Assembly: GCF_019312585.1 (NCBI RefSeq)
Contig: NZ_JAHWDP010000001.1
Span: forward strand, 248,001 to 312,000
DNA length: 64,000 nucleotides
Source of the DNA: Halomarinibacterium sedimenti
GTDB taxonomy: Bacteria > Bacteroidota > Bacteroidia > Flavobacteriales > Flavobacteriaceae
Reading direction: 5' to 3'
How positions within the stretch are numbered: position 1 is the stretch's first letter; each line of letters starts with the position of its first letter. Positions 9,087-41,640 of the stretch are shown one piece after another. The notes below the pieces were generated by a model, which was not told the DNA's origin, ran no database searches, and was given only the letters and a program-made list of their open reading frames with translations. The translations under genes and the position numbers were made by a program.

Positions 9087-10319
9087 TTATTGGAAATCGA
9101 TTGAAAAGCCCACAGATTTAAGGTCTTCCCAAAAAGTTGGATAAGATTTTGAAACCACTTCACAATCATTTATCTGTAACGATGTCTTTAAAGCTAAAGG
9201 AGCAAATGCCATTGCCATACGATGGTCATTATAGGTATTGATTGAAACATTTTTAAATATAGTATTTGAAGAAGTTAGTTTAAGACTGGCTTCATTAATC
9301 TCAAGGTAAGCGCCTAATTTTTCTAATTCTACTTTTAAAGCCGTAAGCCTATCTGTCTCTTTAATTTTCAAGGTGTGAAGTCCTTGGAGTTCACAGTCAG
9401 TTCCTAAACCAAAGCATGTTACTGCAATAGTTTGTGCAATATCTGGAGTATTGACTAAATTAAAATTGACTTTATTAGGGACCTCAATTTTACTTTTTGA
9501 AAGCTTAATGGCATTTTCTTTTGGGAAAAATTCAGTTTCAACTCCTAAGCTTGTGTATATTGTTGAAAGTGCTGCATCTCCTTGTAAGCTTTGCTTTCGA
9601 TAACTTTTTAAAACAATTTCAGTTGCTTTAGACAGTGCTACGATACTATAAAAATAGGATGCCGAACTCCAATCTGATTCCACAACAACCGTTTGATTCT
9701 CGATACTTTTTTTATTAGGGATATAAATATTATTTTCTGAAAAATTCCCTTCAATACCTAGCTGTTGCATCAAAGCTAACGTCATATTTATATATGGCAC
9801 TGAAGTGATTTTTCCCTCTAATTGTATTGTTAAGCCGTTGGGTAAGGATGGAGCAATTAGCATTAACGCAGAAATGAACTGACTGCTTGTAGTAGCCGCT
9901 ATCGACACTTTATTTTGAGTCAATTTTTTTCCTCTTATTTTTAAAGGTGGATATCCATCATTTTTTTCATATTGAATATCCGCCCCCATTTGTCGTAAAG
10001 CTTCTACTAAAATACCTATAGGACGCTCTTGCATTCTTTCACTGCCTGTGAGAATAACTTCAGAATTTTCTTTACAAGCAAAATAGGCAGTTAAAAATCG
10101 CATCGCAGTGCCCGCATGGTGAATATCAACTTCTTTCTCTTTTGAGTTTAACGCCTTTTGAAGGTATTTGGTGTCATCACTTTCTGAAAGATTTTCAATA
10201 GTGATGTTAGGATATAAAGCCTTAAGAATAAGCAAACGATTCGATTCACTTTTTGAACCCGTTATTTGGACTTCAAACGTTTTTTTGGGAAGTGTTGTAT
10301 GGTGGAGAATTGCCTTCAA
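9087..10319 (-). CDS. aroA: 3-phosphoshikimate 1-carboxyvinyltransferase (EPSP synthase)
   Basis: 410 residues. Joins shikimate-3-phosphate and phosphoenolpyruvate in the shikimate pathway. Visible motifs: GSKSESNRLLIL near residue 22, HAGTAMRFLTAYFA (the NAGTAMR-type loop), ERPIGILVEALRQMGA and the C-terminal IKETDRL and YNDHRMAMAFAPLAL. Somewhat shorter than the E. coli enzyme. It lies one base downstream of a small membrane protein gene and is probably co-transcribed with the rsgA-dtd-MazG group. Confidence 0.96.
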   Translation of the reverse strand: MKAILHHTTLPKKTFEVQITGSKSESNRLLILKALYPNITIENLSESDDTKYLQKALNSKEKEVDIHHAGTAMRFLTAYFACKENSEVILTGSERMQERPIGILVEALRQMGADIQYEKNDGYPPLKIRGKKLTQNKVSIAATTSSQFISALMLIAPSLPNGLTIQLEGKITSVPYINMTLALMQQLGIEGNFSENNIYIPNKKSIENQTVVVESDWSSASYFYSIVALSKATEIVLKSYRKQSLQGDAALSTIYTSLGVETEFFPKENAIKLSKSKIEVPNKVNFNLVNTPDIAQTIAVTCFGLGTDCELQGLHTLKIKETDRLTALKVELEKLGAYLEINEASLKLTSSNTIFKNVSINTYNDHRMAMAFAPLALKTSLQINDCEVVSKSYPTFWEDLKSVGFSIDFQ

Positions 10320-29454: not shown

Positions 29455-29482
29455 AAAATCTCTTCATTTGAAGGGATTTTTT
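29455..29482 (+). terminator. Terminator of metK
   Basis: AAAATCTCTTC / GAAGGGATTTTTT with an ATTT loop and one G-T pair. It overlaps the last bases of the convergent response-regulator gene. Confidence 0.75.
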
Positions 29483-30131
29483 ATATAATATTATGTCGTT
29501 TTGCTTTTTGCACCGCTTCAATTTTACTGTGTACTTGAAGTTTTTTGTAAATATTTTCAATGTGCTTTCTAACCGTACTGGGCGATAAAAATAAATTTTC
29601 AGCAATAACAGTATAACTTAAGCCAGTGCTTAACTGTTCTAGTACTTCTATTTCACGTTTGCTTAATGAAATATCTTCTTTGTCTTTTTCATTTTCAATT
29701 GAAAGAGGATTACGTAATAATTTTAATGTTTTCAAAGCAATGGAAGGATTCATAGCTGCACCTCCATTTAAGGTTTCAACAATACCTTCGTATAAATCCT
29801 TAGGATTGATTTCTTTCAGCAAATAGCCATCTGCACCCGCTTTTATAGCATTAAAAATATTCTCATCATTATCGAAGGCGGTTAGCATGATAATTTTGAT
29901 TTGAGGATATTTTTGTTTTACAATTTGTGTTGTTTCAATACCGTTTAAAACTGGCATTTCAATATCCATTAAAATTAAATCGACATTATGATTATCCTCT
30001 AGTTTTCCCAATAGGTCACTTCCATTTAAAGCAGTATGTTTTACTGTAATATCTTCAAAAAAAGAAAGCTTTTCCTTTATAGCGTGAATGAGAAATGAGT
30101 TGTCATCTACAATTGCTATTTTAAGGTTCAT
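29481..30131 (-). CDS. NarL/FixJ-type response regulator
   Basis: 216 residues. Receiver domain about 1-120, with the acidic pocket (VDD, residues 8-10), phospho-acceptor D56 (LILMDIEMPVLNG) and the conserved Lys in YLLKEINPK. LuxR-type helix-turn-helix at about 150-212 (LSKREIEVLEQLSTGLSYTVIAENLF, SPSTVRKHIENIYKKL). Follows the TPR kinase gene by 73 bases and has its own copy of the 18-bp palindrome 53 bases before the ATG. It is the obvious candidate to bind that palindrome and regulate itself and the neighbouring targets. Confidence 0.95.
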   Translation of the reverse strand: MNLKIAIVDDNSFLIHAIKEKLSFFEDITVKHTALNGSDLLGKLEDNHNVDLILMDIEMPVLNGIETTQIVKQKYPQIKIIMLTAFDNDENIFNAIKAGADGYLLKEINPKDLYEGIVETLNGGAAMNPSIALKTLKLLRNPLSIENEKDKEDISLSKREIEVLEQLSTGLSYTVIAENLFLSPSTVRKHIENIYKKLQVHSKIEAVQKAKRHNII

Positions 30132-30154
30132 GGAAGTAGTTGTTGGTTATACTA

Positions 30155-30201
30155 TAAAAGTAAGTCTTTTTGGCATTTCCTCAATAAGGCATTTGTCGTA
30201 T
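30155..30201 (-). promoter_or_regulatory. Palindromic operator and promoter of the response regulator (site d)
   Basis: Plus-strand site ATAAGGCATTTGTCGTAT at 30184-30201. On the minus strand it is followed by TTG, 19 nt and a TACTTTTA -7 box (30162-30155). Operator-to-TTTA gap is 25 nt; TTTA to ATG is 24 nt. One of five such promoters in the window. Confidence 0.75.
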
Positions 30202-30204
30202 TCA

Positions 30205-31992
30205 TTATTTTTCAGCTTTTAGAACACTAAAAAGAATTGTAGTGCCCTTCCCATTTTCTGAATTAAGCTCAAGCTCTCCTTGCAAGTCACGTACTCTTTT
30301 AGACATATTTTGTAAGCCATTCCCCATAACAACTTCTTCCTTATTAAAACCTACACCGTTATCCTGAATGGTTATCATAAAACTTTTATGAGCTTCTTTA
30401 ATTTGCACCACCACTTTAGAAGCTTTAGCATATTTAATAGCGTTATTTACCCCTTCCTGGATGATACGATATATGTTCATCCCTATAATAGATGTAAAAG
30501 ATTGTTGACTATCTATGGAAGGGTCAATCTGAAAATCAAATTGTATGCCTGTCGCGGCTACTTTTGCCTGATTAATAAAATTGGTTATTCGAGTTTGTAA
30601 ATCCTCAAAGGAAATTTCATTTTTATTCATTGCCCAAATGGTATCTCTTAACTCATAAATTGTTTGAGTAGTAAAGGCACTTATGCCTGAAAGCTTATTA
30701 GCTAACTTCTCATTTACATCTGGAAATCCAAACTTTATATTATCGATACTTGAAATAATAAATGTAAGTTGAGAACCAATATTATCGTGCAAATCTCGAG
30801 AAATACGTAATCGTTGTTCTTGTAATTTATTTTGAGTTTCAATACGGGCAAGTGCTTCTTTAAGTTCGCCTTCTTTTTGTAATTGGCGATTCTTTAATTT
30901 TTGTTGATTGTACACTAAATACCCCAATAACCCTAAAACAATAGCCAATCCAAACCCTCCAAAAATCCATGTATTTTTACGGCGAACTTCTAAATCTTTT
31001 TCGGCTAATTGAGCACGTTGTTGAAGGATTTCATTTTCTTTTTTTTCGGTTTCAAACTCAATAGATAATGCAGCAATGTTTTCGTTTACTTTAATATTAT
31101 GAATACTGTCTTTTACGGCTACGTATTGTTCAAAATAGTATAATGCCGAGTCTGTATTCTTTTGTGTTTTATAAATATCTGAAAGCAATTTATAATTGTA
31201 TTGTGTAAGATTTCGGTATTGCTTTTTAATAGAGATGGGTAGTGACTTATGAACAAATGGTATGGCATTTTTCCAATCTTCTTCTGCCATATACACTTCT
31301 CCTATTTGAGTGTAGTTTTCGGCAATTCCAATGGAATCTGCTCGCCTTAATCTATCTCCAAGAGCCATAGTAAAGTACTCTCGAGATTTATTATATTTTT
31401 TTTGCAGTCCATAGACTCCGGCAATATTGCTAATACTGTAAGGAATCCCAACAGAGTCCTTCAATTTTCGCTTTAATTCTAATCCTTTATTAAAATAGTA
31501 CAAAGCACTATCCAATTCATTGTTTATTTCCTTCAATACTCCATAATTATTATAAATATCCTTTAAGCTATTCTCGAGGTTATTTTCTTCTGCTAAGTTC
31601 TTTCCCATCTGCATATAATATAATGCCTTTGGCATATCACGATATTTCATTCCGTAACCCATTTCGGCATAATGATAGGAAACTTTGTCCCACCGTTGCA
31701 ACTTTTCAAACATGGTAATAGACTCTAACCCATATTTTGTGCTTTCTTCATATTTCCCTTGATATCCAAATACGAGAGATAGTTTTGATAAAGCACCTGC
31801 TATACCATCTTCGTAGGAAATCTTTCTTGCATCACTTAAATTTTTTTGAAACAAACTTATAATAGAATCCTGCGGAATATTTAATCCCTGTGTATATAAA
31901 TTATTAATTGAATCAATCTCTTTTTGGGTTTGTGAAAAAAGAAAGGAGCTTACTAAAAAAAGTGAAACTAAGAGGAAGTTCGTTCTGGTCAC
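30205..31992 (-). CDS. TPR-domain sensor histidine kinase (HisKA_3 type)
   Basis: 595 residues. Signal peptide about 1-20; TPR-like repeats across about 60-295 in the periplasm; a charged coiled coil at 300-340; one membrane helix at 341-361. Then a dimerisation domain with phospho-acceptor H402 in RISRDLHDNIGSQL, and an ATPase domain (EGVNNAIKYAKA, DNGVGFN, GNGLQNM, GKGTTILFS). This is the NarX/DesK-like kinase class that partners LuxR-type regulators. Followed by the response regulator and preceded by a small membrane protein 27 bases upstream. The periplasmic TPR ligand is unknown. Confidence 0.93.
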   Translation of the reverse strand: MTRTNFLLVSLFLVSSFLFSQTQKEIDSINNLYTQGLNIPQDSIISLFQKNLSDARKISYEDGIAGALSKLSLVFGYQGKYEESTKYGLESITMFEKLQRWDKVSYHYAEMGYGMKYRDMPKALYYMQMGKNLAEENNLENSLKDIYNNYGVLKEINNELDSALYYFNKGLELKRKLKDSVGIPYSISNIAGVYGLQKKYNKSREYFTMALGDRLRRADSIGIAENYTQIGEVYMAEEDWKNAIPFVHKSLPISIKKQYRNLTQYNYKLLSDIYKTQKNTDSALYYFEQYVAVKDSIHNIKVNENIAALSIEFETEKKENEILQQRAQLAEKDLEVRRKNTWIFGGFGLAIVLGLLGYLVYNQQKLKNRQLQKEGELKEALARIETQNKLQEQRLRISRDLHDNIGSQLTFIISSIDNIKFGFPDVNEKLANKLSGISAFTTQTIYELRDTIWAMNKNEISFEDLQTRITNFINQAKVAATGIQFDFQIDPSIDSQQSFTSIIGMNIYRIIQEGVNNAIKYAKASKVVVQIKEAHKSFMITIQDNGVGFNKEEVVMGNGLQNMSKRVRDLQGELELNSENGKGTTILFSVLKAEK

Positions 31993-32019
31993 GATTAAAA
32001 ATATTTACATTAAAAATAC

Positions 32020-32253
32020 TCAAATATTTATTTCGGACTGCACGACTAAAGCTTCATCGAGATTGTATTGTAGAAAATGATATTTGTTTAACCCAGTTTC
32101 TCGAAACTGAATTTGATTTTTGTGCTTTAAAGCTTCTTCAATTAAAAAGACTTGTTGAGCAATAGCATGTTGTTTGAGGGCTTTATTTTTGTATTGAAAA
32201 TACAACCCCAAAGTCCCACATATTAAAACAATTATGCAAATGGTAAACAGCAC
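32020..32253 (-). CDS. Small membrane protein co-transcribed with the TPR kinase
   Basis: 77 residues from a GTG start at 32253: one membrane helix at about 2-20, then a charged helical tail (YKNKALKQHAIAQQVF, LIEEALKHKNQIQF). No family was recognised; the topology suggests an accessory subunit for the kinase encoded 27 bases downstream. Start choice: the palindrome promoter upstream places GTG 27 nt after the -7 box, the same distance as for two other genes with that promoter. The codon directly after an upstream stop is ATA, giving an IKRRLIV extension, which is not a standard start. Confidence 0.6.
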   Translation of the reverse strand: MLFTICIIVLICGTLGLYFQYKNKALKQHAIAQQVFLIEEALKHKNQIQFRETGLNKYHFLQYNLDEALVVQSEINI

Positions 32254-32279
32254 AATTAATCTACGTTTTATTTATGAAA

Positions 32280-32327
32280 TAAAAATAGTCAATTACTCCT
32301 GAGGTAAGAATAAGGCATCTGACGTAT
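32280..32327 (-). promoter_or_regulatory. Palindromic operator and promoter of the small membrane protein / TPR kinase unit (site e)
   Basis: Plus-strand site ATAAGGCATCTGACGTAT at 32310-32327. Minus-strand -7 box TATTTTTA at 32287-32280, with 26 nt between operator and TTTA. No TTG at the -33 position (TTC instead). It also lies 82 bases before the plus-strand gene at 32409, but the spacing rule is not met in that direction. Confidence 0.72.
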
Positions 32328-32408
32328 TATGGATAATAGGAGCATAATTTTATCAAGGAAAATTTTTTTTGTATTTTACTGAATATTAGATTTTTAAATA
32401 AAAACAAA

Positions 32409-33596
32409 ATGAAAAATATTACACTTTTCTTTTCCATAGTACTATTCACTTTTTTTTGTGACACATACGCTCAAACCGAACGTTCTTTGGATGAACTTTT
32501 AGTAATACTTTCTCAAAATCATAAGGGAAAAGTTACCGATGTTTTTAGCTTAAAAGAACTTCAGGTACTGAAAGAACATTTTAATAGTTCCATCTTTTTT
32601 GAAGAAAAATTAAGTTCCGTGGAAAACATTAGGTTATCCACAACTCAATCTGTCACTACTGTACAAGCCGCCGATATTATTCCAAGCGATTTGTCAGTCA
32701 TTGAGGTACTTGGAAATTCTCCTAACACCGATTTTGAAGGAGCAGGTGTGGTAATTAGAGGTTCGACCAATCAAAGTACGGATGCCTATATTATTTTGGA
32801 CACCTCTAATAGATTACAACATCGGGATCCACTAACTGGTACGTACACAGATTATGGTGAAGTTACAGGTATTCCAGCTGGAGTTTCCATTACAGGATTA
32901 ACTCGAGGGGCTGCAGATCATTTACTCTTAGGAATCGCCACTAATGGAACTCCTGGTGGAAGTGCCCTGTATAGTATTAATATTAATACACTTACAGCTA
33001 CTTTTATTCAAGGAAATGACTTAGTCCTACCCATCGCTTTGGCCGAGGATGGAAATGGGGAGTTAGTGACCATTGATATTGACAATGATATGGCATACCG
33101 AGTGAATCCTATTACGGGATTTGTATCCCCCATTGGTTCTATAGGATATGATGCAAATTTTGGGCAAGGGATGACTTTTTCTCCTGTTGAAGGAAAAATT
33201 TACAACACAGCCTATAATTCGACCATTGGCGATTCGTCTTTATATGAAATGAATCCAAATACAGGTAATTTAACTGCCCTAGGTATTATACAACCTGGTT
33301 TAACTCAACAATTTGGATGGTCTGGATATTACGATCAAGATCTCTTATCAATTTCAGACACTACTATTGAAGGACTTATTTTTTATCCTAATCCTACTAA
33401 AGATTTTGTGGTATTGGAAGGAAATCATCAATTACAACAAATTGAAATTTATTCTATGTTAGGAAATAAAGTATATTCAGAAAGGTTTCAAGCTAGATTA
33501 AAAAAATTGGATGTCTCATTTTTAGCAACAGGAAACTATATTTTGAAAGTATTTTCAGCAGATCAAACAGGAACTTATAAATTAAAAAAATATTAA
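32409..33596 (+). CDS. Secreted beta-propeller-like protein with T9SS sorting domain
   Basis: 395 residues. Signal peptide about 1-21 (ends DTYAQ). The central part (about 90-310) has repeated blade-like segments (DPLTGTYTDYGEVTGIPAG, INTLTATFIQGNDLVLPIALAEDGNGELVTID, VNPITGFVSPIGSIGYD, NPNTGNLTALG), typical of DUF4394-like propellers. A type A T9SS domain closes it (about 322-395; IFYPNPTKDFVVLEG, IYSMLGNKVYSE, TGNYILKVFS). It is convergent with the second kinase gene and its 3' end overlaps it by 4 bases. Function unknown. Confidence 0.83.
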   Translation: MKNITLFFSIVLFTFFCDTYAQTERSLDELLVILSQNHKGKVTDVFSLKELQVLKEHFNSSIFFEEKLSSVENIRLSTTQSVTTVQAADIIPSDLSVIEVLGNSPNTDFEGAGVVIRGSTNQSTDAYIILDTSNRLQHRDPLTGTYTDYGEVTGIPAGVSITGLTRGAADHLLLGIATNGTPGGSALYSININTLTATFIQGNDLVLPIALAEDGNGELVTIDIDNDMAYRVNPITGFVSPIGSIGYDANFGQGMTFSPVEGKIYNTAYNSTIGDSSLYEMNPNTGNLTALGIIQPGLTQQFGWSGYYDQDLLSISDTTIEGLIFYPNPTKDFVVLEGNHQLQQIEIYSMLGNKVYSERFQARLKKLDVSFLATGNYILKVFSADQTGTYKLKKY

Positions 33597-35476
33597 TCCA
33601 TAGGAAAGGTTAGCGTGATTATCGTTCCTTTATTATCTGAATTAATATGGACCCTTCCGTTTAAATCTCGTGCTCTTTTCTTAATATTATTGAGCCCATT
33701 TCCCATTTCAGTATTCTTGAGATCAAATCCTTTACCATCGTCTAAAATTGACAGTACCAATTGATTATCCTTTTCCAAAATACTAACGATTATCGTTTTG
33801 GCATCGGCGTACTTTAAAGCATTGTTTACCCCTTCCTGTATAATACGGTAAACATTCATCCCTTTAATAGATGGCAACATAAGCTCTTTCGAAATACTTT
33901 CGGCTACTTGAAAGGTGAACTTTACTTTAGAATCTGCAACACCTGCTTTATCAATAAAGTTAGAAATTCTGGCCTGTAGATCTTCCACCGAAATATTTTC
34001 TTTATTCATTGCCCAAATGGTATCTCGAAGCTCATAGATGGTTTGAGTAGTAAATGCGCTTATTCTAGTTAGTTTATCTGAAACTTTGTCATCTTTATCT
34101 TGTAATCCATACTTTAAATTATCTACAGAGGAAGTAACAAAAGTAAGCTGTGCGCCAATATTATCGTGTAAGTCCCGGGAAATCCTTAATCGCTGTTCTT
34201 GAAGTTTATTTTGCGTTTCAATTTTTGCTAAAGCCTCCTTTAGTTCGCCTTCACGTCTTAATTGATTATTTTTCAATTTTTGCTGATTGTAAAATAGGTA
34301 TCCTAAAAGTCCTAAAATTAGCCCAAACGCCATGCTACCGTATATAAACTTGTTTTTTCGCTCTACTTCAAGTTCTGTTTCTGCAAGATTAGCACGCGTT
34401 TCGGCAAGGTCCCGTTCTTTTTTCTCGGTTTCATATTTAGTCTCCATTTCGGTTACCTTTGCGGCTCTTTCGTCATTAAAAACGGAGTCTCTCAATTTAT
34501 AAAATGCTTCCTGTTTTTCTAAAGCATTTTTATAATCTCCTATTTTTTTATAAAACCAAGCTTCCTGTTGGACTACATCTCTTATTTTTTCTATGCTACC
34601 ACTCTCCTGCGCAAATTTGTTTGCTAGGATAAAGTTTTCTTTTGCTTCGGTATTTTTACCCTGTTCGTAAGCTATAGTAGCAAGATTGGTATAATTGGTT
34701 GCTAGGTTGTATATATTCCCTTTAAGGGTATTCATTACCAAAGATCTATTGATATATTTTTTGGCCTCAGTATAGCGCTTAGTCTTTAAAAGTGTATTTC
34801 CAATATTATTGAAAATGAAAGTAAAGTTTAAAGAATCATCTACCTTTTTGAGGAGTTCTACATTTCTATAATGGTAAAATAAGGCACTGTCTGCTTTTCC
34901 CCAATCGTCAAAATTTATGGCCGTTGCATTATTAGCAAAAATGAGGTATTTATAATTTTTATTCTTAGCCTCATCCATAATTTTATAGGCCTTTTTCCCA
35001 TAGGAAACACCTTTTTCATAATCTTCGAAATCATGATACACAATAGATATGTCTGATGTATGGCGTGACACTAATCCTGTATCTTTCATTTTTTCAGCAA
35101 TAGTAAGCGCTTGTTGGGTAAAACCTAAGGCTTCTTCATACTTCCCAGTTCTTAATTCTTGGTAATATAGACGTTCATATATTTTTCGGATTCGCTCTAA
35201 AGAATCCAATGATTTTAACAGTGGGATAACTTTATTTGAATAATAGGCGGTGCTATCTGTAATTCTTAGAACATCATTTCTGAAAAACCTGAAATACCAG
35301 TAGTTAGCAGTATCGGCTTTATTTTTTAGAAGTTTTTTCGATTTTGAAAAATAATATTCAGAAGAGTCGTTGCTTTTGTACGCATTTAATAATAGAGTAT
35401 CCAAAGTATCTATTCCTTGAGAATGAACACTCCCAATAGAGGATAAACAAAGAAAAAAGGGAAGTATATATTTCAT
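33593..35476 (-). CDS. Second TPR-domain sensor histidine kinase (paralogue)
   Basis: 627 residues. Signal peptide about 1-19, TPR repeats about 95-330, coiled coil 335-375, membrane helix 377-396, phospho-acceptor H437 in RISRDLHDNIGAQL, then the ATPase domain (EGVNNALKYADA, DDGKGFD, GNGLNNI). The part after the membrane helix is highly similar to the kinase at 30205-31992, while the TPR part differs. This points to duplication with change of sensor. It has no adjacent response regulator of its own, so both kinases may feed the regulator at 29.5 kb. Confidence 0.92.
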   Translation of the reverse strand: MKYILPFFLCLSSIGSVHSQGIDTLDTLLLNAYKSNDSSEYYFSKSKKLLKNKADTANYWYFRFFRNDVLRITDSTAYYSNKVIPLLKSLDSLERIRKIYERLYYQELRTGKYEEALGFTQQALTIAEKMKDTGLVSRHTSDISIVYHDFEDYEKGVSYGKKAYKIMDEAKNKNYKYLIFANNATAINFDDWGKADSALFYHYRNVELLKKVDDSLNFTFIFNNIGNTLLKTKRYTEAKKYINRSLVMNTLKGNIYNLATNYTNLATIAYEQGKNTEAKENFILANKFAQESGSIEKIRDVVQQEAWFYKKIGDYKNALEKQEAFYKLRDSVFNDERAAKVTEMETKYETEKKERDLAETRANLAETELEVERKNKFIYGSMAFGLILGLLGYLFYNQQKLKNNQLRREGELKEALAKIETQNKLQEQRLRISRDLHDNIGAQLTFVTSSVDNLKYGLQDKDDKVSDKLTRISAFTTQTIYELRDTIWAMNKENISVEDLQARISNFIDKAGVADSKVKFTFQVAESISKELMLPSIKGMNVYRIIQEGVNNALKYADAKTIIVSILEKDNQLVLSILDDGKGFDLKNTEMGNGLNNIKKRARDLNGRVHINSDNKGTIITLTFPMD

Positions 35477-35505
35477 TAAGGCCGGTTATAGTAGGATGAA
35501 AATAG

Positions 35506-35533
35506 AAAAAACACGGCAATTGCCATGTTTTTT
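35506..35533 (-). terminator. Terminator of the MORN gene pair
   Basis: A near-perfect palindrome AAAAAACA-CGGCAATTGCC-ATGTTTTTT downstream of the second MORN gene. Its centre resembles the operator palindrome of this region, but it is flanked by A/T runs and lacks the fixed -7 spacing, so terminator is the better call. Confidence 0.78.
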
Positions 35534-35553
35534 CTATAAAAATTATTCTAAAA

Positions 35554-36321
35554 TTAATAGGCTGTAACTAATTGGCCATTACTCCATTCGCCTATTTTAG
35601 ATTTGTAACTACTATCGTGATAATATCCTCTACCATGTTGTTGTCCATTACTCCATTGGCCCCCATAATAGGCATTGTCATTAAAGAAAAACCTTCCTTC
35701 ACCATGAAATTGATTGTTACTGTTAAACATACCCTCGTATTTGTCTCCAGAAGCGAAGGTGTAAGTCCCCATGTACATTTTTCCGTTTTTAAAGAAGCCT
35801 GTAAATCTATCGCCATTGCTCCAAATATATCGCCCGTATTTATCTTGACAATCACCAGCGACACACCCAGTATCTACATTGTTATCGTAAAAAGTATACG
35901 CCGTATCGACTAAATAATTTTTAAAAATACCGTACTCCCACTTATCATTTTCGAGTTCATGGGTATATCCCACACCATTCATCATCCCATTGCGGTACTC
36001 ACCAATCAAGTTCTTTTCCTTTCCAATATAGCAGCCATACCCGTGTAACTCGTCATTATTCCAAAACCCCATATAACTTCCGGAGGTTGTCCAATTAAAA
36101 AGTCCATATCCTTCTCGGTTTCCATTTCTAAAGAAACCTTCATAATAACCGTAATCATAGATTTTCTTTCCCCAGCCATTTGTACAATCCCCACTTTCAC
36201 AATAGGGGTATTGTTTTTCTGTAGTAGTTTTAGGGGTCTTAGGTTGTGGCACTCCTTGTGCATACACCATTGAAAATAGCAAGAGCCCAATAATAGTAAA
36301 TGTAATTTTTAGTGTTTTCAT
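35554..36321 (-). CDS. Exported MORN-repeat protein (second of a tandem pair)
   Basis: 255 residues from Met at 36321, which begins a signal peptide (MKTLKITFTIIGLLLFSMVYAQ); an in-frame ATG at 36366 adds 15 unlikely residues. About eight MORN-like repeats fill the rest (GYYEGFFRNGNREGYGLF, YMGFWNNDELHGYGCY, GEYRNGMMNGVGYTH, FTGFFKNGKMYMGTY, YEGMFNSNNQFHGEGRF, YGGQWSNGQQHGRGYYH). Paired CESGDC and CVAGDC segments suggest a disulfide. Very similar to the C-terminal part of its upstream neighbour; gap 11 bases. Function unknown. Confidence 0.88.
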   Translation of the reverse strand: MKTLKITFTIIGLLLFSMVYAQGVPQPKTPKTTTEKQYPYCESGDCTNGWGKKIYDYGYYEGFFRNGNREGYGLFNWTTSGSYMGFWNNDELHGYGCYIGKEKNLIGEYRNGMMNGVGYTHELENDKWEYGIFKNYLVDTAYTFYDNNVDTGCVAGDCQDKYGRYIWSNGDRFTGFFKNGKMYMGTYTFASGDKYEGMFNSNNQFHGEGRFFFNDNAYYGGQWSNGQQHGRGYYHDSSYKSKIGEWSNGQLVTAY

Positions 36322-36332
36322 TATAATAACTT

Positions 36333-37718
36333 TTACATTTTTTTGACTAGTGTTCCATTGGACCATTCACCTATTTTTTGTTCTAAACTACTGTTGTGGT
36401 AGTAGCCTCTACCCTCATATTTTCCATTTCGCCATTCTCCTCCATAATAGGCATCATCTGCGAAGAAAAATCTTCCCATTCCGTGGAATTGATTATCACT
36501 ATTAAACATTCCCGAATATTTATCGCCACTGGCAAAACTGTATGTACCCATATACAGCTTTCCATTTTTGAAAAACCCAATAAAAGTATCGCCATTACTC
36601 CATTCAAACTTTCCGTATTTGTTTTGACAATCACCGGCAGTACAACCCGAATCATTTCCTGTTGAATAGAAATCGTAATGTGTACTTATGTTTCCATCAT
36701 AAAATATTCCTTGATCCCACTTATCTCCAGTAACAGTAATTCCTAATCCATTAAGTTGCCCGTTTTTGTATTCACCAATAATATTGTCATTATTATCGGC
36801 TAAATAAACACCATAGCCATTCATATTATCATTTTGCCACGTTCCAATATACTTTCCTATACCATCCCACTTATACAATCCGTAGCCTTCTTTTTTTCCA
36901 TTTTTCCAAAAACCATCATAATATCCATTGTCGTATTCGTATTTTCCCCATCCGTTTTGACAATCCCCATCAACGCATCCTGAAGTATTATTGTTTGTAG
37001 GAATTGAACCCGAAGATGCCATTTTTACTGGCTTAAAAACTAAGGACGCCATGGTGTAATATCCAGGAAGAATATATTTATCTACTCCATTTACCTTAAC
37101 TACTAGGTCGTTATCTCTTTTTTCGGTAGAAGCGTTAGTGTAGTCCATGGACTCCCCTTTTTCAACCACGTGATAGCTATTACTCTCTGCCACTCTACAC
37201 CAATATACATTTTCTGCAGAATAGTCTAGCTTTGATGCTGTTTTAGCTCCCCAATTAGAAAATTTACGAATATCTGGAAGGTAATAGGTAGTATTTTTTT
37301 CGGCAACGTAGTAAACATAACTTCCCCCAATATTAACAAAGGGACCAGATATGTATTCATCATCGGAATAAAAAACAAAAGAGTTTGGATTTGTGAGATA
37401 GAAATTGGTTCCTACATTACGTTCCAAAAGTGTTGCTTTCCCTGAAGAGCCATTGACTGCTTCTTTAAAATCTTCTAATAAATACACATTTCTTGAGCTT
37501 TTATCCAAAACCGCAAGTGTATTGGTACTTAGGTACTTTAAATCAACAACGTTTGTTAATTGTCGACCGTTCTCCTTAAGCGAATAATTGTATTCGCTGG
37601 TTTTTGTCCAAGTTAATCCAGATGTAGAATTATTAACTCCTTGAGGTGTTGGGACTTGAGCATTTACCGCTAGATTGAAGCTAAAAATAAGGCTGAAAAA
37701 TAGGGTTACTAATTTCAT
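36333..37718 (-). CDS. Exported MORN-repeat protein with N-terminal unknown domain
   Basis: 461 residues. Signal peptide about 1-20 (ends LAVNAQ). Residues about 25-235 form an unrecognised domain. From about 245 there are eight or so MORN repeats (GYYDGFWKNGKKEGYGLY, YIGTWQNDNMNGYGVYL, FIGFFKNGKLYMGTYSFASG, YSGMFNSDNQFHGMGRFFF, YGGEWRNGKYEGRGYYH). CVDGDCQNGWG and CTAGDCQNKYG pairs match the tandem copy. MORN repeats are usually cytoplasmic or membrane-linked scaffolds, so an exported pair is unusual. Its promoter carries one of the five shared palindromes. Confidence 0.9.
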   Translation of the reverse strand: MKLVTLFFSLIFSFNLAVNAQVPTPQGVNNSTSGLTWTKTSEYNYSLKENGRQLTNVVDLKYLSTNTLAVLDKSSRNVYLLEDFKEAVNGSSGKATLLERNVGTNFYLTNPNSFVFYSDDEYISGPFVNIGGSYVYYVAEKNTTYYLPDIRKFSNWGAKTASKLDYSAENVYWCRVAESNSYHVVEKGESMDYTNASTEKRDNDLVVKVNGVDKYILPGYYTMASLVFKPVKMASSGSIPTNNNTSGCVDGDCQNGWGKYEYDNGYYDGFWKNGKKEGYGLYKWDGIGKYIGTWQNDNMNGYGVYLADNNDNIIGEYKNGQLNGLGITVTGDKWDQGIFYDGNISTHYDFYSTGNDSGCTAGDCQNKYGKFEWSNGDTFIGFFKNGKLYMGTYSFASGDKYSGMFNSDNQFHGMGRFFFADDAYYGGEWRNGKYEGRGYYHNSSLEQKIGEWSNGTLVKKM

Positions 37719-37744
37719 AATTGAAAGGTTTTTAAGTGTTTAAA

Positions 37745-37792
37745 CAAAGTACTAAAAAAAAATTAAATTATATAATAGGGCATTTGCCCTAA
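37745..37792 (-). promoter_or_regulatory. Palindromic operator and promoter of the MORN operon (site c)
   Basis: Plus-strand site ATAGGGCATTTGCCCTAA at 37775-37792; 26 nt separate it from TTTG (37748-37745, in GTACTTTG). TTTG to ATG is 27 nt. The operator overlaps the last codons of the membrane-protein gene ending at 37789. Confidence 0.75.
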
Positions 37793-38169
37793 AAATAAAC
37801 CAAACATATTCCTACAAAAATTAATACAAGTAAAAACCCCAACCAAACCAAGGAAAGCAACCGTAACTTTGAGGTCTTTAGAAATTTAAAAACTACCCAA
37901 AGCCCCACTATACCCGTAGGAAAAGAAATATAAACAGTCTCGGTAAAAGTTCCTTGATAGAAGGTACATAGCCCTATGACACTAATAATTATCCCTAAAA
38001 TTCCATAGCTATAAATTTGAGTTTTGGGCTTACTTTTAGCAATTTTCAGAATCAAAAAATCAAGAATAAGAACCAAAACTAGTAAACCTATTAAAACAAA
38101 TAAAGCTGGAAAATAACTCAGGACATATCCCCAAATTCCGTAATCATTGTTTGGCACTAATGATATCAT
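37789..38169 (-). CDS. Four-helix membrane protein, unknown function
   Basis: 126 residues, with hydrophobic helices at about 12-40, 53-72, 78-95 and 102-125. No signal peptide or motif recognised. The start overlaps the end of the upstream membrane-protein gene by four bases, so the pair is translated together. Its 3' end carries the MORN operon operator. Confidence 0.7.
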   Translation of the reverse strand: MISLVPNNDYGIWGYVLSYFPALFVLIGLLVLVLILDFLILKIAKSKPKTQIYSYGILGIIISVIGLCTFYQGTFTETVYISFPTGIVGLWVVFKFLKTSKLRLLSLVWLGFLLVLIFVGICLVYF

Positions 38170-38894
38170 TCTGAAAATTCTTGAAATTTTTCCTTTGCTT
38201 CCAAATACTCGGCTTCGGTCTTTGTGATTTTTCTTAAAAGTTTATCCATATTGTTGGAGTCTCTGTGAATTCCGAGAATGATAAGATCTACAATTAATCT
38301 GAATAAAATTAATAAAACGGCGGCAGCAAATCCTTCCGATAGTAAAATAAAAAAGAACCCTGCCAAAATAACGGTGAACTGTTGTATAAAAATACGCACA
38401 TAAGGCCTAAAAAATAATCCGCTTGGAGAATACTCTTTAAACTGGTCATTTTTCCAAAAGTTGGTGTAAAAATATTTCAGATTTGAAACAACCAATGAAG
38501 CAATTAAAATTGGCATTCCTTCTAGCCGAAGAATAACTCCGTAATTATGTATTAAATGAAACCCATCTTTTAGTTGAGATAATTCATTTTCAAAAAAAGA
38601 AAATAAAAAAATAGATTGGATAGCTACAAACATTCCATAATGGAATATAAAAAATACAATAAGCCCTATAGAAGAAGTTGGCATCTTAGCAGTTGCCTTT
38701 GAACTTTTACCATATGTATTTACCATCCACAGTTTCACACAATGAAAAACCCCAATAATGATGGTTTCCAAAAAATAGGCAAATACAACACTTATAGGGT
38801 CTGCTAACTCTAACAATAGTAGCACCAATAAAAAAAGTGCATTTCCCCAAATTAAGTAATTGTATTTGTTAGGAATAAAAATCGATTTCATCAT
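38166..38894 (-). CDS. DUF6498-type integral membrane protein
   Basis: 242 residues, with about five to six hydrophobic helices (about 13-30, 33-52, 75-100, 125-145, 170-212). IWGNALFLLVLLLLELADPISVVFAYFLETIIIGVFHCVKL matches my memory of the DUF6498 family. Ends in a soluble charged helix (LLRKITKTEAEYLEAKEKF). Function unknown. First gene of a two-gene unit. Confidence 0.65.
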   Translation of the reverse strand: MMKSIFIPNKYNYLIWGNALFLLVLLLLELADPISVVFAYFLETIIIGVFHCVKLWMVNTYGKSSKATAKMPTSSIGLIVFFIFHYGMFVAIQSIFLFSFFENELSQLKDGFHLIHNYGVILRLEGMPILIASLVVSNLKYFYTNFWKNDQFKEYSPSGLFFRPYVRIFIQQFTVILAGFFFILLSEGFAAAVLLILFRLIVDLIILGIHRDSNNMDKLLRKITKTEAEYLEAKEKFQEFSE

Positions 38895-38907
38895 TTTACT
38901 AGTTTAA

Positions 38908-38933
38908 AAGCCCCATTGCTTCCAATGGGGCTT
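38908..38933 (-). terminator. Terminator of the beta-propeller gene
   Basis: AAGCCCCATTG / CAATGGGGCTT with a four-base loop, then TTTTAAAC on the minus strand. Lies between the propeller gene and the DUF6498-type gene. Confidence 0.8.
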
Positions 38934-38991
38934 GCTTTGCGACAAACCTAAACTCCTCATTTACATCGTCGCGATTAACTTGGCTAGTTAA

Positions 38992-40851
38992 TTACTTTTT
39001 AAGATCATACGCATAAATAAGATCGTCTTTGGCTTTGTAATACAATACACCTCCAAAATCATCTACTTCATACTCTGGCTTTTTATCTTTTAAAATGATT
39101 TCTTTTTCTGTCTTACCCGAATCCTTGTTTACTTTAACCAGACCTACGCCGTCATCTAGTTTGGTTAAAATGAATTGTGCATTTTCGGTGGCAGCTGTAG
39201 CTTTAAATCGTTGCGACATAAACTCAAATGAAGCTGAACCAATGGCAGAGAACATTTTAGATTGCCTATCATATTCCTTTCCATATTCGTTATAATCTCC
39301 CAAGCTATTTCTGTTTGCTCCGGCTGCTGCCGCGGCAGAAACAGCCATAGTTGTGGATGCCACAGCTATAACACCCCCTACAATTTTTGCAAAGGTGCTC
39401 TTTGAAGGCGATTTATAATATTGATGATATACTTCATTACCATTAAAGTCTATTAAAGTCATATTTTGATCCGAACCTAAATAAACTCCACCATTTCTCA
39501 TTTGAATTGAACTGGGTTGTTCTTTTTCATCAAAATCTGTGTTTGCAAAAGCTGAAACATTCCCTGTAGTAGGATCTACGGCCATAATTTCATCATCTGC
39601 AGAGATTAAATACCGATTGTTACTTTTATCGAATGTGGAAGCAACCGATGTTGCTCTTTTGTACTTTAGAGGTTTATCCCACACTTGGTCACCCGTTTCA
39701 AGGTTTACAATATTGGCATCTTCACTTGTAATATAAATTAACCCTTGTGGAGTATGTGCCATTACCATAATATTCTCTCCTGTTTTTAATGGCTTTTTGA
39801 AGAGGGTTTTTCCATCAAACGAAATTTTATTAATTCCGCCTTGTTGTATTCCAAAGAGAATTCCATCGTCCATAATATAAAAATGCTGCACATACCCTTT
39901 TGTTTTTGGGGCTTTTTCCCAAAGATCTTCACCGGTTTGGGCGCTTAAAAATCCTATTTCAGACTCGTCTTTTGCGGCAAATACACTATTGCTTCCACCA
40001 CTGCTTTTGTTACTTACAACTGCTAAACCTTGTGGTAATATTTCAAAATTTACTACTTGTCCTTTTACTTTTGCAGCATCTTTCCAAAGTTCTGCCCCAT
40101 CTGCTCCCACTTTATAAATTTCCATACTACTTCCCGAAGTGTTGCTTTCAAAAGCATAGATTTCTTTTTCAGAAGCATCCGCAGTCATCCAGTTTACATT
40201 CTTAATTTTATTTTCCCAAAGGGTTTCACCTGTAAGTGTTTTTGCAATAATTCCTTGACTGGTTGGGATAAGCATTTTGTCTTTTAACAATAATGGATCT
40301 CCTGTTACCATATAACTTTTCATAGTCGTTTTCCCAGGAGGAAATAAGTAAAAAGAGTAGTCCTCTTTTCCATTTCCTAAATCATATACCGCTACTTTTG
40401 GAGTATTATTCTCGGCCATGTCGCCAGTTTTTTGGAGCCCACTAACAATAAGCTTGTTTTGAGGCATCGCTGTAGAAGAAGTGAAAATCTGTCTCCACTG
40501 ATTCCCTTCAGAACTAAAAAGTATTTGACCTGAAACAAAATCAATTACAGTTTTCTTGGAAGACATAAATCCGCCTTGTGCCACCATAACATAAGGTGAA
40601 GCAGGAATAAAAGTGAGTTCTTCTGGTTTTACGCGACCGTAGTCTGTAAATTTAAAAAGCAATTCATTGCTTCCAGGCTTAATGCCTACTAAGCCATCGT
40701 TACTTGCAACAACAAGCGTCCCAGCCTCGGTAAGATACATTTCGTTAATTTTCCCGCCTATATCGTAGCTCCAGTCGGGTTGTTCGGCTTTTTGCGCAAA
40801 CGTCCCTAAAGCTATTAAAAGAGCAAAAAGTGTGTTGAAAATTGTTTTCAT
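38992..40851 (-). CDS. Exported PQQ-type beta-propeller repeat protein
   Basis: 619 residues from Met at 40851, which starts a signal peptide (MKTIFNTLFALLIALGTFAQ); ATG at 40893 would prepend 14 residues. Blades alternate phrases such as LVVASNDGLVGIKPGSNELLFKF, GIIAKTLTGETLWENK, IGFLSAQTGEDLWEKA, VNLETGDQVWDKPL and IMAVDPTTGNVSAF, the pattern of quinoprotein-like WxD propellers. A hydrophobic Ala/Val segment near 500 (FAKIVGGVIAVASTTMAVSAAAAAG) interrupts the repeats and could insert in a membrane. A cofactor is not evident. Controlled by a copy of the shared palindrome. Confidence 0.82.
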   Translation of the reverse strand: MKTIFNTLFALLIALGTFAQKAEQPDWSYDIGGKINEMYLTEAGTLVVASNDGLVGIKPGSNELLFKFTDYGRVKPEELTFIPASPYVMVAQGGFMSSKKTVIDFVSGQILFSSEGNQWRQIFTSSTAMPQNKLIVSGLQKTGDMAENNTPKVAVYDLGNGKEDYSFYLFPPGKTTMKSYMVTGDPLLLKDKMLIPTSQGIIAKTLTGETLWENKIKNVNWMTADASEKEIYAFESNTSGSSMEIYKVGADGAELWKDAAKVKGQVVNFEILPQGLAVVSNKSSGGSNSVFAAKDESEIGFLSAQTGEDLWEKAPKTKGYVQHFYIMDDGILFGIQQGGINKISFDGKTLFKKPLKTGENIMVMAHTPQGLIYITSEDANIVNLETGDQVWDKPLKYKRATSVASTFDKSNNRYLISADDEIMAVDPTTGNVSAFANTDFDEKEQPSSIQMRNGGVYLGSDQNMTLIDFNGNEVYHQYYKSPSKSTFAKIVGGVIAVASTTMAVSAAAAAGANRNSLGDYNEYGKEYDRQSKMFSAIGSASFEFMSQRFKATAATENAQFILTKLDDGVGLVKVNKDSGKTEKEIILKDKKPEYEVDDFGGVLYYKAKDDLIYAYDLKK

Positions 40852-40877
40852 AATCGTGGTTTTAAATTTGATTACTT

Positions 40878-40925
40878 CAAAGGTGTAAAACATTGCCTAG
40901 TAGTTCAATAGGGCAATTGACGTAT
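40878..40925 (-). promoter_or_regulatory. Palindromic operator and promoter of the beta-propeller gene (site b)
   Basis: Plus-strand site ATAGGGCAATTGACGTAT at 40908-40925. Minus strand: operator, then TG completing a TTG, 20 nt, then CACCTTTG (40885-40878). Operator to TTTG is 26 nt; TTTG to the chosen ATG is 27 nt. Confidence 0.78.
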
Positions 40926-40965
40926 AATTTATATAGTAATGGATTTTAGGTAGATGGTCATTACG

Positions 40966-41003
40966 TAAAAAACCGGAAGCAAAACAAAGTTCTACTCCCG
41001 GCT
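40966..41003 (-). terminator. Terminator of the DUF6252-like lipoprotein gene
   Basis: Minus strand CCGG-AG-GAAC / GTTT-CT-CCGG with small internal bulges, followed by a T run. Lies 43 bases after the stop codon. Confidence 0.6.
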
Positions 41004-41045
41004 CCACGTAAAAACCTCAACACTTGAGATTTTTTTTAATGGGAT

Positions 41046-41564
41046 TTAGTTTTGGGTTACTTCCATATCAAAAGATCCACTTGTTACTGAAACTGTATCT
41101 GTGTTATCTTGAATATTATACCCTGTAAAAGAAAAGGTTCCCTTTACTCTGTCTGCTGTGTAACTAGAAATATTAACTTCTCCTCCAGAAGTAGTTCCAT
41201 TTACGGCCATATACACTACCACGGTTGTTGGATCTGGATTGCCTGGATCTGGCAAGTAGCTATAGGTTCCAATATTAGCTAAGTTTAACTCGTAAGTTCC
41301 TACGCCATCAAAATTTTGGATTATCATTTGTAGATTTTCTGAATCCACTGTTCCTGCAGAAACAGCCATAACTCTAACACCTCCAGAATTGGATTCTTGA
41401 GCCATAACAGTTCCTTCAAGTGACTCAAAAGAACCACCATCTACAGTTGCAGTCATAGTTCCAGCGGCTGCCTGTGGGTCGTCACCCCCGTCATCGTCTT
41501 TTTTACATGAAGCAAGCACTAAACTTGCAAAAAAGAATAAAGAAAGAATTTTTAAAGTTTTCAT
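41046..41564 (-). CDS. DUF6252-like secreted lipoprotein
   Basis: 172 residues. Lipobox SLVLASC near residue 19 is followed by an acidic linker (KKDDDGGDD). The mature part (GTMTATVDGGSFESLEGTV, YELNLANIGTYSYLP, GGEVNISSYTADRVKGTFSFTGYN) has the beta-rich pattern of the DUF6252 family found in Bacteroidetes. Function unknown. Its promoter carries the best copy of the shared palindrome, which makes it a likely member of the two-component regulon. Confidence 0.75.
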   Translation of the reverse strand: MKTLKILSLFFFASLVLASCKKDDDGGDDPQAAAGTMTATVDGGSFESLEGTVMAQESNSGGVRVMAVSAGTVDSENLQMIIQNFDGVGTYELNLANIGTYSYLPDPGNPDPTTVVVYMAVNGTTSGGEVNISSYTADRVKGTFSFTGYNIQDNTDTVSVTSGSFDMEVTQN

Positions 41565-41592
41565 AATTGTATGTTTTGGTTTTTGTTAGGTA

Positions 41593-41640
41593 CAAAGTTG
41601 TCCTAAAACCAAAGCGCATACAATACGGCAATTGTCGTAT
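41593..41640 (-). promoter_or_regulatory. Palindromic operator and promoter of the DUF6252-like gene (site a)
   Basis: Plus-strand site ATACGGCAATTGTCGTAT at 41623-41640, nearly a perfect palindrome. Minus strand: operator, TG completing a TTG, 20 nt, CAACTTTG (41600-41593). Operator to TTTG is 26 nt; TTTG to ATG is 29 nt. Confidence 0.78.

Follow-up and report, generated by a model that had tools for sequence, protein, structure and literature searches.

What does an 18-bp palindrome do that stands at an almost fixed distance from five promoters of Halomarinibacterium sedimenti, and which protein reads it? The stretch in question, here called the window, comprises 64,000 nucleotides (nt), C1:248001-312000 of a 2.96-Mb genome in 15 contigs, and all five promoters face its minus strand. 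A sequence-only reading of this DNA had assigned the palindromes to the NarL-type response regulator encoded at 29481-30131. Very probably they are indeed the operators of this regulator, which would activate its own gene, the unit of a sensor kinase and a set of genes for exported proteins in a class II-like manner.

Operators and promoters in the window

The pattern ATANGGCANYTGNCGTAT is matched exactly at 30184, 32310, 40908 and 41623, compared with a mean of 0.00 in 100 shuffles of the window. The fifth site, at 37775, reads ATAGGGCATTTGCCCTAA and has two mismatches to the pattern, yet it is a good palindrome at the same promoter position; the earlier statement that five sites fit was therefore overstated, four of them being exact. 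The spacing from the operator to the TTTG or TTTA of the -7 box, which had been given as 26 nt and once 25, was found as described (26 nt at 41623, 40908, 37775 and 32310, and 25 nt at 30184), as was the TTG that abuts the operator edge in three of the five promoters (41623, 40908 and 30184). The promoter elements are as follows.

30184..30201, minus strand: operator of the response regulator gene, ATACGACAAATGCCTTAT, with TTG across its edge; exact match
30155..30158, minus strand: TTTA of the -7 box of the regulator promoter, 25 nt from the operator; from the sequence
32310..32327, minus strand: operator of the unit of the small protein and kinase HK1, ATACGTCAGATGCCTTAT; exact match
32280..32283, minus strand: TTTA of the -7 box of the small protein/kinase promoter, at 26 nt; from the sequence
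37775..37792, minus strand: operator of the MORN unit, TTAGGGCAAATGCCCTAT; two mismatches
37745..37748, minus strand: TTTG of the -7 box of the MORN promoter, at 26 nt; from the sequence
40908..40925, minus strand: operator of the propeller gene, ATACGTCAATTGCCCTAT, with TTG across its edge; exact match
40878..40881, minus strand: TTTG of the -7 box (CACCTTTG) of the propeller promoter, at 26 nt; from the sequence
41623..41640, minus strand: operator of the lipoprotein gene, ATACGACAATTGCCGTAT, with TTG across its edge; exact match
41593..41596, minus strand: TTTG of the -7 box (CAACTTTG) of the lipoprotein promoter, at 26 nt; from the sequence

When up to three mismatches are allowed, both strands of the window together hold 13 matches (shuffle mean 2.1, largest 6), and the exactly reversed pattern has none in the window, where 2.05 would be expected from shuffles. 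In a genome-wide search the exact pattern was found five times, namely at the four exact sites of the window and, with the same spacing, at C11:216196. There, TTTA follows after 26 nt and is followed by the gene for a 524-residue exported protein with Peptidase_C1 and DUF4384 domains. A symmetric pattern, ATANGGCANNTGNCNTAT, adds a weaker site at C13:21550, with TTTA at 27 nt, before an OMP_b-brl gene. At up to three mismatches this genome gives 143 matches and the reversed control 108; because such a loose search yields mostly noise, counts were limited to exact or near-exact patterns.

Conservation of the operator and its spacing

Named relatives by regulator include Altibacter and Aequorivita, which share 87-88% identity with it. 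Two sets of loci were compared. For the island set, regions of at most 19.5 kb around the regulator were taken from relatives; 46 sources less four (three distal stretches and the region of genome G037) gave 42 loci, the window included, and an operator was counted when it had at most two mismatches and lay at most 170 nt upstream of a gene. The second set consists of the best 80 regulator loci found on scanned genome contigs, belonging to Aequorivita, Altibacter, Gilvibacter, Mesonia, Gelidibacter, Psychroserpens, Winogradskyella, Flavobacterium and others, and was searched with a looser rule (.TA.GN8C.TA. with TTTG or TTTA at 24-28 nt).

In the island set, an operator lies upstream of the lipoprotein gene in 34/38 cases, the propeller gene in 26/32, the small-protein gene in 22/26, the regulator gene in 26/40, and the two MORN genes in 10/20 (MORN1) and 4/11 (MORN2). 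Five other genes of the same set have none (GSCFA 0/39, alaS 0/38, metK 0/10, HK1 0/48, DUF6498 0/12), and the one operator-like site in nine HK2 genes is the hairpin at 35511 described below. When stretches of equal length that start 200 nt within each gene were taken as controls, there were eight matches in total: four for the short YgaP-like gene and three for the small protein, in which the stretch overruns the gene end, and one for the lipoprotein.

After removal of two of the 124 island-set operators, those counted for the window's type IX secretion system (T9SS)-sorted gene, which shares the 32310 site, and for the window's HK2, 109 of the 122 remaining have TTTG or TTTA at 25-27 nt, and 98 have it at exactly 26; shuffled downstream sequence gave a mean of 7.7 and at most 15. 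The bases between the operator and the -7 box show little consensus, and common descent alone therefore hardly accounts for the spacing. The outer TA...TA is present in all 122 operators, which is partly an effect of selecting sites at up to two mismatches.

A DUF6252 gene is present on the fetched stretch in 60 of the 80 loci of the second set, and its lipoprotein is the most constant target of the operator: 59 of 60 genes have operator and spacing, the sole miss being the second tandem copy in locus L180, and all 59 promoters have TTTG at exactly 26 nt. The other counts are 16/23 for the small protein, 15/38 for the propeller, 5/11 for DUF6498, 2/7 for MORN1, 1/5 for MORN2, 6/89 for HK1 and 0/19 for HK2, with 25/560 for other open reading frames (ORFs) of at least 200 residues and none in the controls of this set (GSCFA 0/59, alaS 0/34, metK 0/18).

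As a separate observation, five Flavobacterium loci (L180, L181, L182, L190 and L192) have an operator and a -7 box 165-203 nt from the regulator start, upstream of position 10001, and in four of the five the gap is filled by a similar leader (AAGTGGTATTGAT and onward).

Core promoters and the sign of regulation

When numbered by the sigma-A box of F. psychrophilum, placed as TAnnTTTG at -12 to -5 in the available text of PMC9723704, the operator occupies about -52 to -35 and TTG -35 to -33. Compared with the placement proposed earlier, at about -42, the predicted centre is nearer -43.5 on this numbering. What these promoters share with the Bacteroidota sigma-A consensus (-7 TAnnTTTG; PMC9723704, same text) is the TTTG or TTTA box at a fixed place, whereas in the island set most lipoprotein and propeller promoters have CA for TA, and most regulator and small-protein promoters have TTTA for TTTG. 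In numbers, lipoprotein and propeller promoters with a -7 box carry TTG in 58/59 cases and CA in 56/59; regulator and small-protein promoters carry TA in 33/36, TTTA in 34/36 and TTG in 5/36; and the ten MORN1 promoters have TTTG, no TTG, and TA one base nearer. The combination of TTG, TA and TTTG is found in 0/109 island-set promoters, where 13.6 would be expected if the elements were independent. The 59 lipoprotein promoters of the 80-locus set show the same picture (TTG 51, CA 54, TTTG 59, all three core elements 0/59), and the regulator promoters of that set are less uniform (TTTG 11/34). Because nearly all core promoters lack one element, we infer activation, and cores that are incomplete in this way suggest dependence on an activator.

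The same regulator might instead act on the same operators as a repressor which, when bound at -52 to -35, would hinder sigma region 4, with phosphorylation either lifting or imposing the block. NarL itself represses certain promoters (available text of PMC4549865), and here the operator touches the -33 TTG in 33/34 lipoprotein and 25/25 propeller promoters with a -7 box. Pure repression, however, should keep a good core, and it is precisely the complete core that is absent from the 109 island-set promoters and the 59 lipoprotein promoters of the 80-locus set; moreover, activators require a site that precedes the -7 box by a constant distance, and this is what is seen. We therefore regard repression as improbable.

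The regulator and its match to the operator

The candidate binding protein is encoded as follows.

29481..30131, minus strand: NarL-type response regulator, 216 residues; Pfam Response_reg 2.5e-25 and GerE 1.2e-18

Its receiver domain has the phospho-acceptor and the conserved D, T and K residues (D9, D10, D56, T84 and K106), and its GerE/LuxR-type helix-turn-helix domain carries SPSTVRKHIENIYKKL and matches NarL chains. Against the E. coli NarL equivalog NF007935 it scores 131.5 bits, below the cut-off of 250. The fullest form of the operator, TACGGCA-NN-TGCCGTA, consists of inverted heptamers 2 bp apart (7-2-7). This is the layout preferred by E. coli NarL, with the test site TACCCCTAAAGGGGTA, and the sites through which NarL works at napF (-40/-49) and yeaR (-38/-47) are likewise 7-2-7 ones (PMC4549865, available text). 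The likeness to NarL extends over receiver and GerE domains, the heptamers (TACCCCT-AA-AGGGGTA in E. coli) and the predicted 7-2-7 position near -43, as at napF and yeaR (PMC4549865, same text). By contrast, the GGCA bases of the inner heptamer, the TPR-sensor kinases, the Bacteroidota sigma-A promoters, the autoregulation and the exported-protein targets set the present system apart; the layout resembles that of NarL at napF, and operator, targets and promoter code are its own.

Operator and regulator also occur together. Among 397 Flavobacteriaceae genomes, the regulator is present (E <= 1e-48) in 97 and absent from 300. The exact symmetric motif was found in 51/97 regulator-positive and 27/300 regulator-negative genomes (Fisher 1.9e-18, a p-value that is merely a guide because the genomes are related), and at least three matches were found in 34/97 with the regulator and 1/300 without it. 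This sole exception (G001) belongs to the window's genus, is 79% complete, and has a contig that breaks off within HK1, ahead of the place expected for the regulator. In total there were 210 motif matches in regulator-positive and 39 in regulator-negative genomes, with 4 and 19 for the reversed pattern; palindromic matches were counted on both strands, that is, twice.

In a survey of 30 of the 97 regulator-positive and 40 of the 300 regulator-negative genomes, DUF6252 was found at E <= 1e-45 in 23/30 and 0/40, and at E <= 1e-8 in 24/30 and 6/40, respectively. Operator and spacing are present at 22 of the 23 strong DUF6252 genes of regulator-positive genomes; in the odd one out (G058) the frame contains a stop, and 149 nt separate the operator from the aligned start. 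They are present at none of seven DUF6252-like genes of regulator-negative genomes and at none of seven weaker paralogues in regulator-positive ones.

Exact sites outside the island were surveyed in 23 stretches (L027, L028, L264-L284). A papain/DUF4384 gene lies downstream of an operator with the 25-27-nt rule in G000, G001, G121, G258 and G013, where the identity rests on Pfam for the G000 and G013 copies and on the N-terminal sequence for the others. Other distal targets with the rule are OMP_b-brl genes (G000, G221), MORN genes (G334, G314), a propeller gene (G057), a gene of G328 that is MORN-like by eye and had no Pfam match, and exported-looking genes in G117, G113 and G209 (two). In G043 and G269, neither strand of the four exact sites outside the island (L265-L268) shows the -7 rule. 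In the four of 27 regulator-negative genomes with exact matches that were inspected (L281-L284), there was no convincing promoter: G065, G260 and G320 have no TTTG or TTTA at 25-27 nt on either strand, and G247 satisfies the rule on one strand, solely before a 70-residue ORF.

The operators might be bound by another DNA-binding protein encoded elsewhere, the two-component genes being mere targets. The genome does contain 27 matches to the regulator, mostly paralogues or receiver domains, and binding by the regulator at 29481 is itself a prediction. However, this regulator is the sole recognised DNA-binding protein among the island proteins scanned, motif matches track its presence, the palindrome has the NarL 7-2-7 layout, and the operator core changes with the regulator's recognition helix in one supported event. 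Taken together, these points leave another binder distinctly unlikely. As to the helix, S-PS-T or S-PA-T pairs with GGCA-core operators and S-xG-T with ATACG-N8-CGTAT: a GGCA half is present in 31/32 lipoprotein promoters with a PS/PA helix and 4/28 with an xG helix, and in 20/23 and 0/13 regulator promoters, respectively. Of nine further regions, seven have an xG helix and together hold ATACG-N8-CGTAT 15 times, 13 of these sites lying, by position, before the regulator or the lipoprotein; the two regions with a P helix (L262, L065) lack it.

That the palindromes act as RNA, as terminators of upstream genes or leader hairpins, is hardly credible: although a near-match at 35511 folds at -21.1 kcal/mol and 37775 at -10.0, the other four sites fold weakly (-1.6 to -5.5 kcal/mol), terminators require no 26-nt distance to a -7 box, and none of the terminator-like sites listed falls on one of the five operators. 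The near-match at 35511-35528 was dropped as a sixth operator, having no TTTG or TTTA at 25-27 nt and flanks that extend into its hairpin. It lies inside a long inverted repeat between MORN2 and HK2, with a run of T on the 3' arm, and is probably a terminator or hairpin rather than an operator; the terminator scan did not list it, and calling it a terminator is a judgement by eye.

Proposed mechanism and wider reading

The earlier proposal of a NarL-type regulator acting as an activator gains support from the comparison, namely from the conserved gene set, the 26-nt rule, the co-occurrence, the receiver and GerE domains and the 7-2-7 layout; phosphorylation, DNA binding, the sign of regulation and the signal are predictions made from sequence. 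In the mechanism that we propose, one or two TPR-sensor membrane kinases would phosphorylate the regulator, and a dimer of it would bind the 7-2-7 palindrome at about -52 to -35, adjoining the -33 position, where it would recruit sigma-A RNA polymerase in a class II-like activation. Its own gene and the small protein-kinase unit would thereby be activated, together with an exported set (the DUF6252 lipoprotein, the PQQ-type propeller and the MORN proteins) and distal genes for the papain-like DUF4384 protein and an outer-membrane barrel.

Several findings weigh against this proposal. In the 80-locus set, only 35/82 regulator-like genes have operator and spacing, and one of 34 regulator promoters, or 1/131 over six genes, does carry TTG, TA and TTTG. 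The exact GGCA pattern is absent from 46/97 regulator-positive genomes; five such regions were inspected (G006, G010, G016, G045 and G146), and the variant ATACG-N8-CGTAT is present in them. In the receiver-domain tree the helix-operator change amounts to one supported event, four at most, and the covariation therefore fits the proposal but is not independent evidence for it. Finally, related genomes are not independent samples.

A broader reading, which we offer tentatively and would place just short of an even balance, joins these elements into a regulon that spans the order and follows a two-tier promoter code, nearly every target promoter being short of one core element and hence dependent on the regulator. 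On this reading, output promoters would keep the -33 TTG and TTTG and carry CA for TA, and autoregulatory promoters would keep TA, mostly lack TTG and end in TTTA; the small membrane protein and two kinases would tune one regulator, whose dedicated output would be a beta-barrel lipoprotein; and the replacement of two recognition-helix residues (PS to xG) throughout a clade would have altered the core of the operator, its outer ATACG...CGTAT being kept.

To our knowledge, few two-component regulons have been mapped in Flavobacteriia. Open-access searches on such a regulon, on DUF6252, on TPR kinases and on MORN proteins with two-component systems in flavobacteria, with subscription papers outside their scope, gave no account of this regulon as far as the available text goes, and the signalling system seems to be undescribed. 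Operator, spacing rule, regulator, kinases and target list are recognisable in the sequences of many genera, which makes promoter control and regulator-operator co-evolution in Bacteroidota directly testable and offers a starting point for studying DUF6252 lipoproteins, exported MORN proteins and a small membrane protein without a name.

FimR, of the FimS/FimR system of Porphyromonas gingivalis, belongs to the LuxR/NarL class. This system comes from the same phylum, and the alignment of the present island's kinases with the FimS model covers both TPR and kinase parts (68.4 and 73.3 bits against NF053520, below the cut-off of 600). FimR binds the mfa1 promoter and activates a surface-protein gene (PMC1974823, available text). 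The FimS/FimR targets differ from those found here in being fimbriae, and the terms footprint, palindrome and binding site are absent from the available text of PMC1974823.

Proteins of the island

The other genes of the island, beside the regulator, are the following.

30205..31992, minus strand: sensor kinase HK1, 595 residues; Pfam TPR, HisKA_3 and HATPase, with signal peptide and transmembrane segment by eye
32020..32253, minus strand: small protein, 77 residues, first gene of the kinase unit; one transmembrane segment by eye, alignment of 20 members
32409-33596: T9SS-sorted gene, running divergently from the small protein; matches DUF4394
33593..35476, minus strand: sensor kinase HK2, 627 residues, without its own operator; Pfam TPR, HisKA_3 and HATPase
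35554..36321, minus strand: exported MORN protein 2, 255 residues; Pfam MORN 2.7e-17
36333..37718, minus strand: exported MORN protein 1, 461 residues; Pfam MORN 5.2e-13
38166..38894, minus strand: DUF6498 membrane protein; Pfam 3.5e-43
38992..40851, minus strand: exported PQQ/BamB-like propeller, 619 residues; Pfam PQQ_2 7.7e-12
41046..41564, minus strand: DUF6252 / Riean_0653-family lipoprotein, 172 residues; Pfam 4.4e-09

The island order is alaS, GSCFA, [operator] DUF6252 lipoprotein, [operator] propeller, DUF6498, [operator] MORN1, [operator] MORN2, HK2, [operator] small protein, HK1, [operator] regulator and metK, with frequent losses and swaps in relatives; the names of the flanking genes were confirmed by Pfam on the window copies. 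The target set may represent a cell-envelope or surface programme. The T9SS-sorted gene has relatives in 7/80 loci, with operator and spacing in none of the seven.

The kinases carry the H-box [DE][LI]H[DE] in 103/106 kinase-like ORFs of at least 450 residues in the 80-locus set. Counted on the regulator strand within a 10-kb flank limit, there are two such ORFs per regulator in 30 of the 80 loci, one in 45 and none in 5; two kinases per regulator suggest two inputs into one regulator. The small-protein family, of about 80 residues and located before or between kinases, has the C-terminal motif R..L..Y.F..YNL.EAL..Q, in which R, L, Y, F, N, L and Q are invariant in the 20 aligned members. A Pfam scan of the window's small protein gave no family, and a LapA domain was weakly matched in 2/20 members.

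The lipoprotein passes the Riean_0653 model NF052634 (61.4 bits, cut-off 57), and 35/36 aligned members match it at E <= 0.001. Disruption of the family's namesake in Riemerella lowered haemolysis, and the recombinant protein was not haemolytic (PMC7881567, available text). The predicted structure of the DUF6252 lipoprotein (pLDDT 86.9) aligned in VIA-align to LpqH with Z 10.5 and a root-mean-square deviation of 2.8 over 107 aligned residues, and to TbpB with Z 7.5; because a Z of 7 to 8 commonly arises by chance, the LpqH match is a modest one. By this model DUF6252 is a predicted beta-barrel lipoprotein closest to LpqH, and no function is assigned from the match. Foldseek with the model gave nothing at E <= 0.001, and the DUF6252 profile against PDB sequences gave four matches, all at E >= 0.16.

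In G003 (C12:1484828-1486823; L327, L364), where the orthologue is absent, a distant regulator with 33% identity adjoins a DUF6252-like gene, with no such operator within 1.5 kb. The pair may be a diverged sister system.

Reach beyond the Flavobacteriaceae

The Flavobacteriaceae would have an autoregulated TPR-kinase/NarL-type regulon that reaches other families of the order, its binding, activation and signal being likewise predicted. The regulator was found in 23 of 196 sampled genomes of the order; 17 of the 23 lie outside the family, at 45-70% identity. Among 12 outside-family regions, an operator with the rule precedes the regulator in L292 and L293, regions of another family with the same layout before that gene, and a poorer one does so in L291. 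In L294 an operator with the rule stands before the propeller, and in L288 and L289 before an exported gene; L297 has merely a poor match, and L290, L295, L296, L298 and L065 have no operator with the rule. DUF6252-like genes of the 17 outside-family regulator genomes gave 28 loci, two of which, both in G565, have operator and spacing by a stricter pattern; these loci were not counted because the matches are weak. In G037, an operator with the rule precedes two exported-looking genes elsewhere in the genome.

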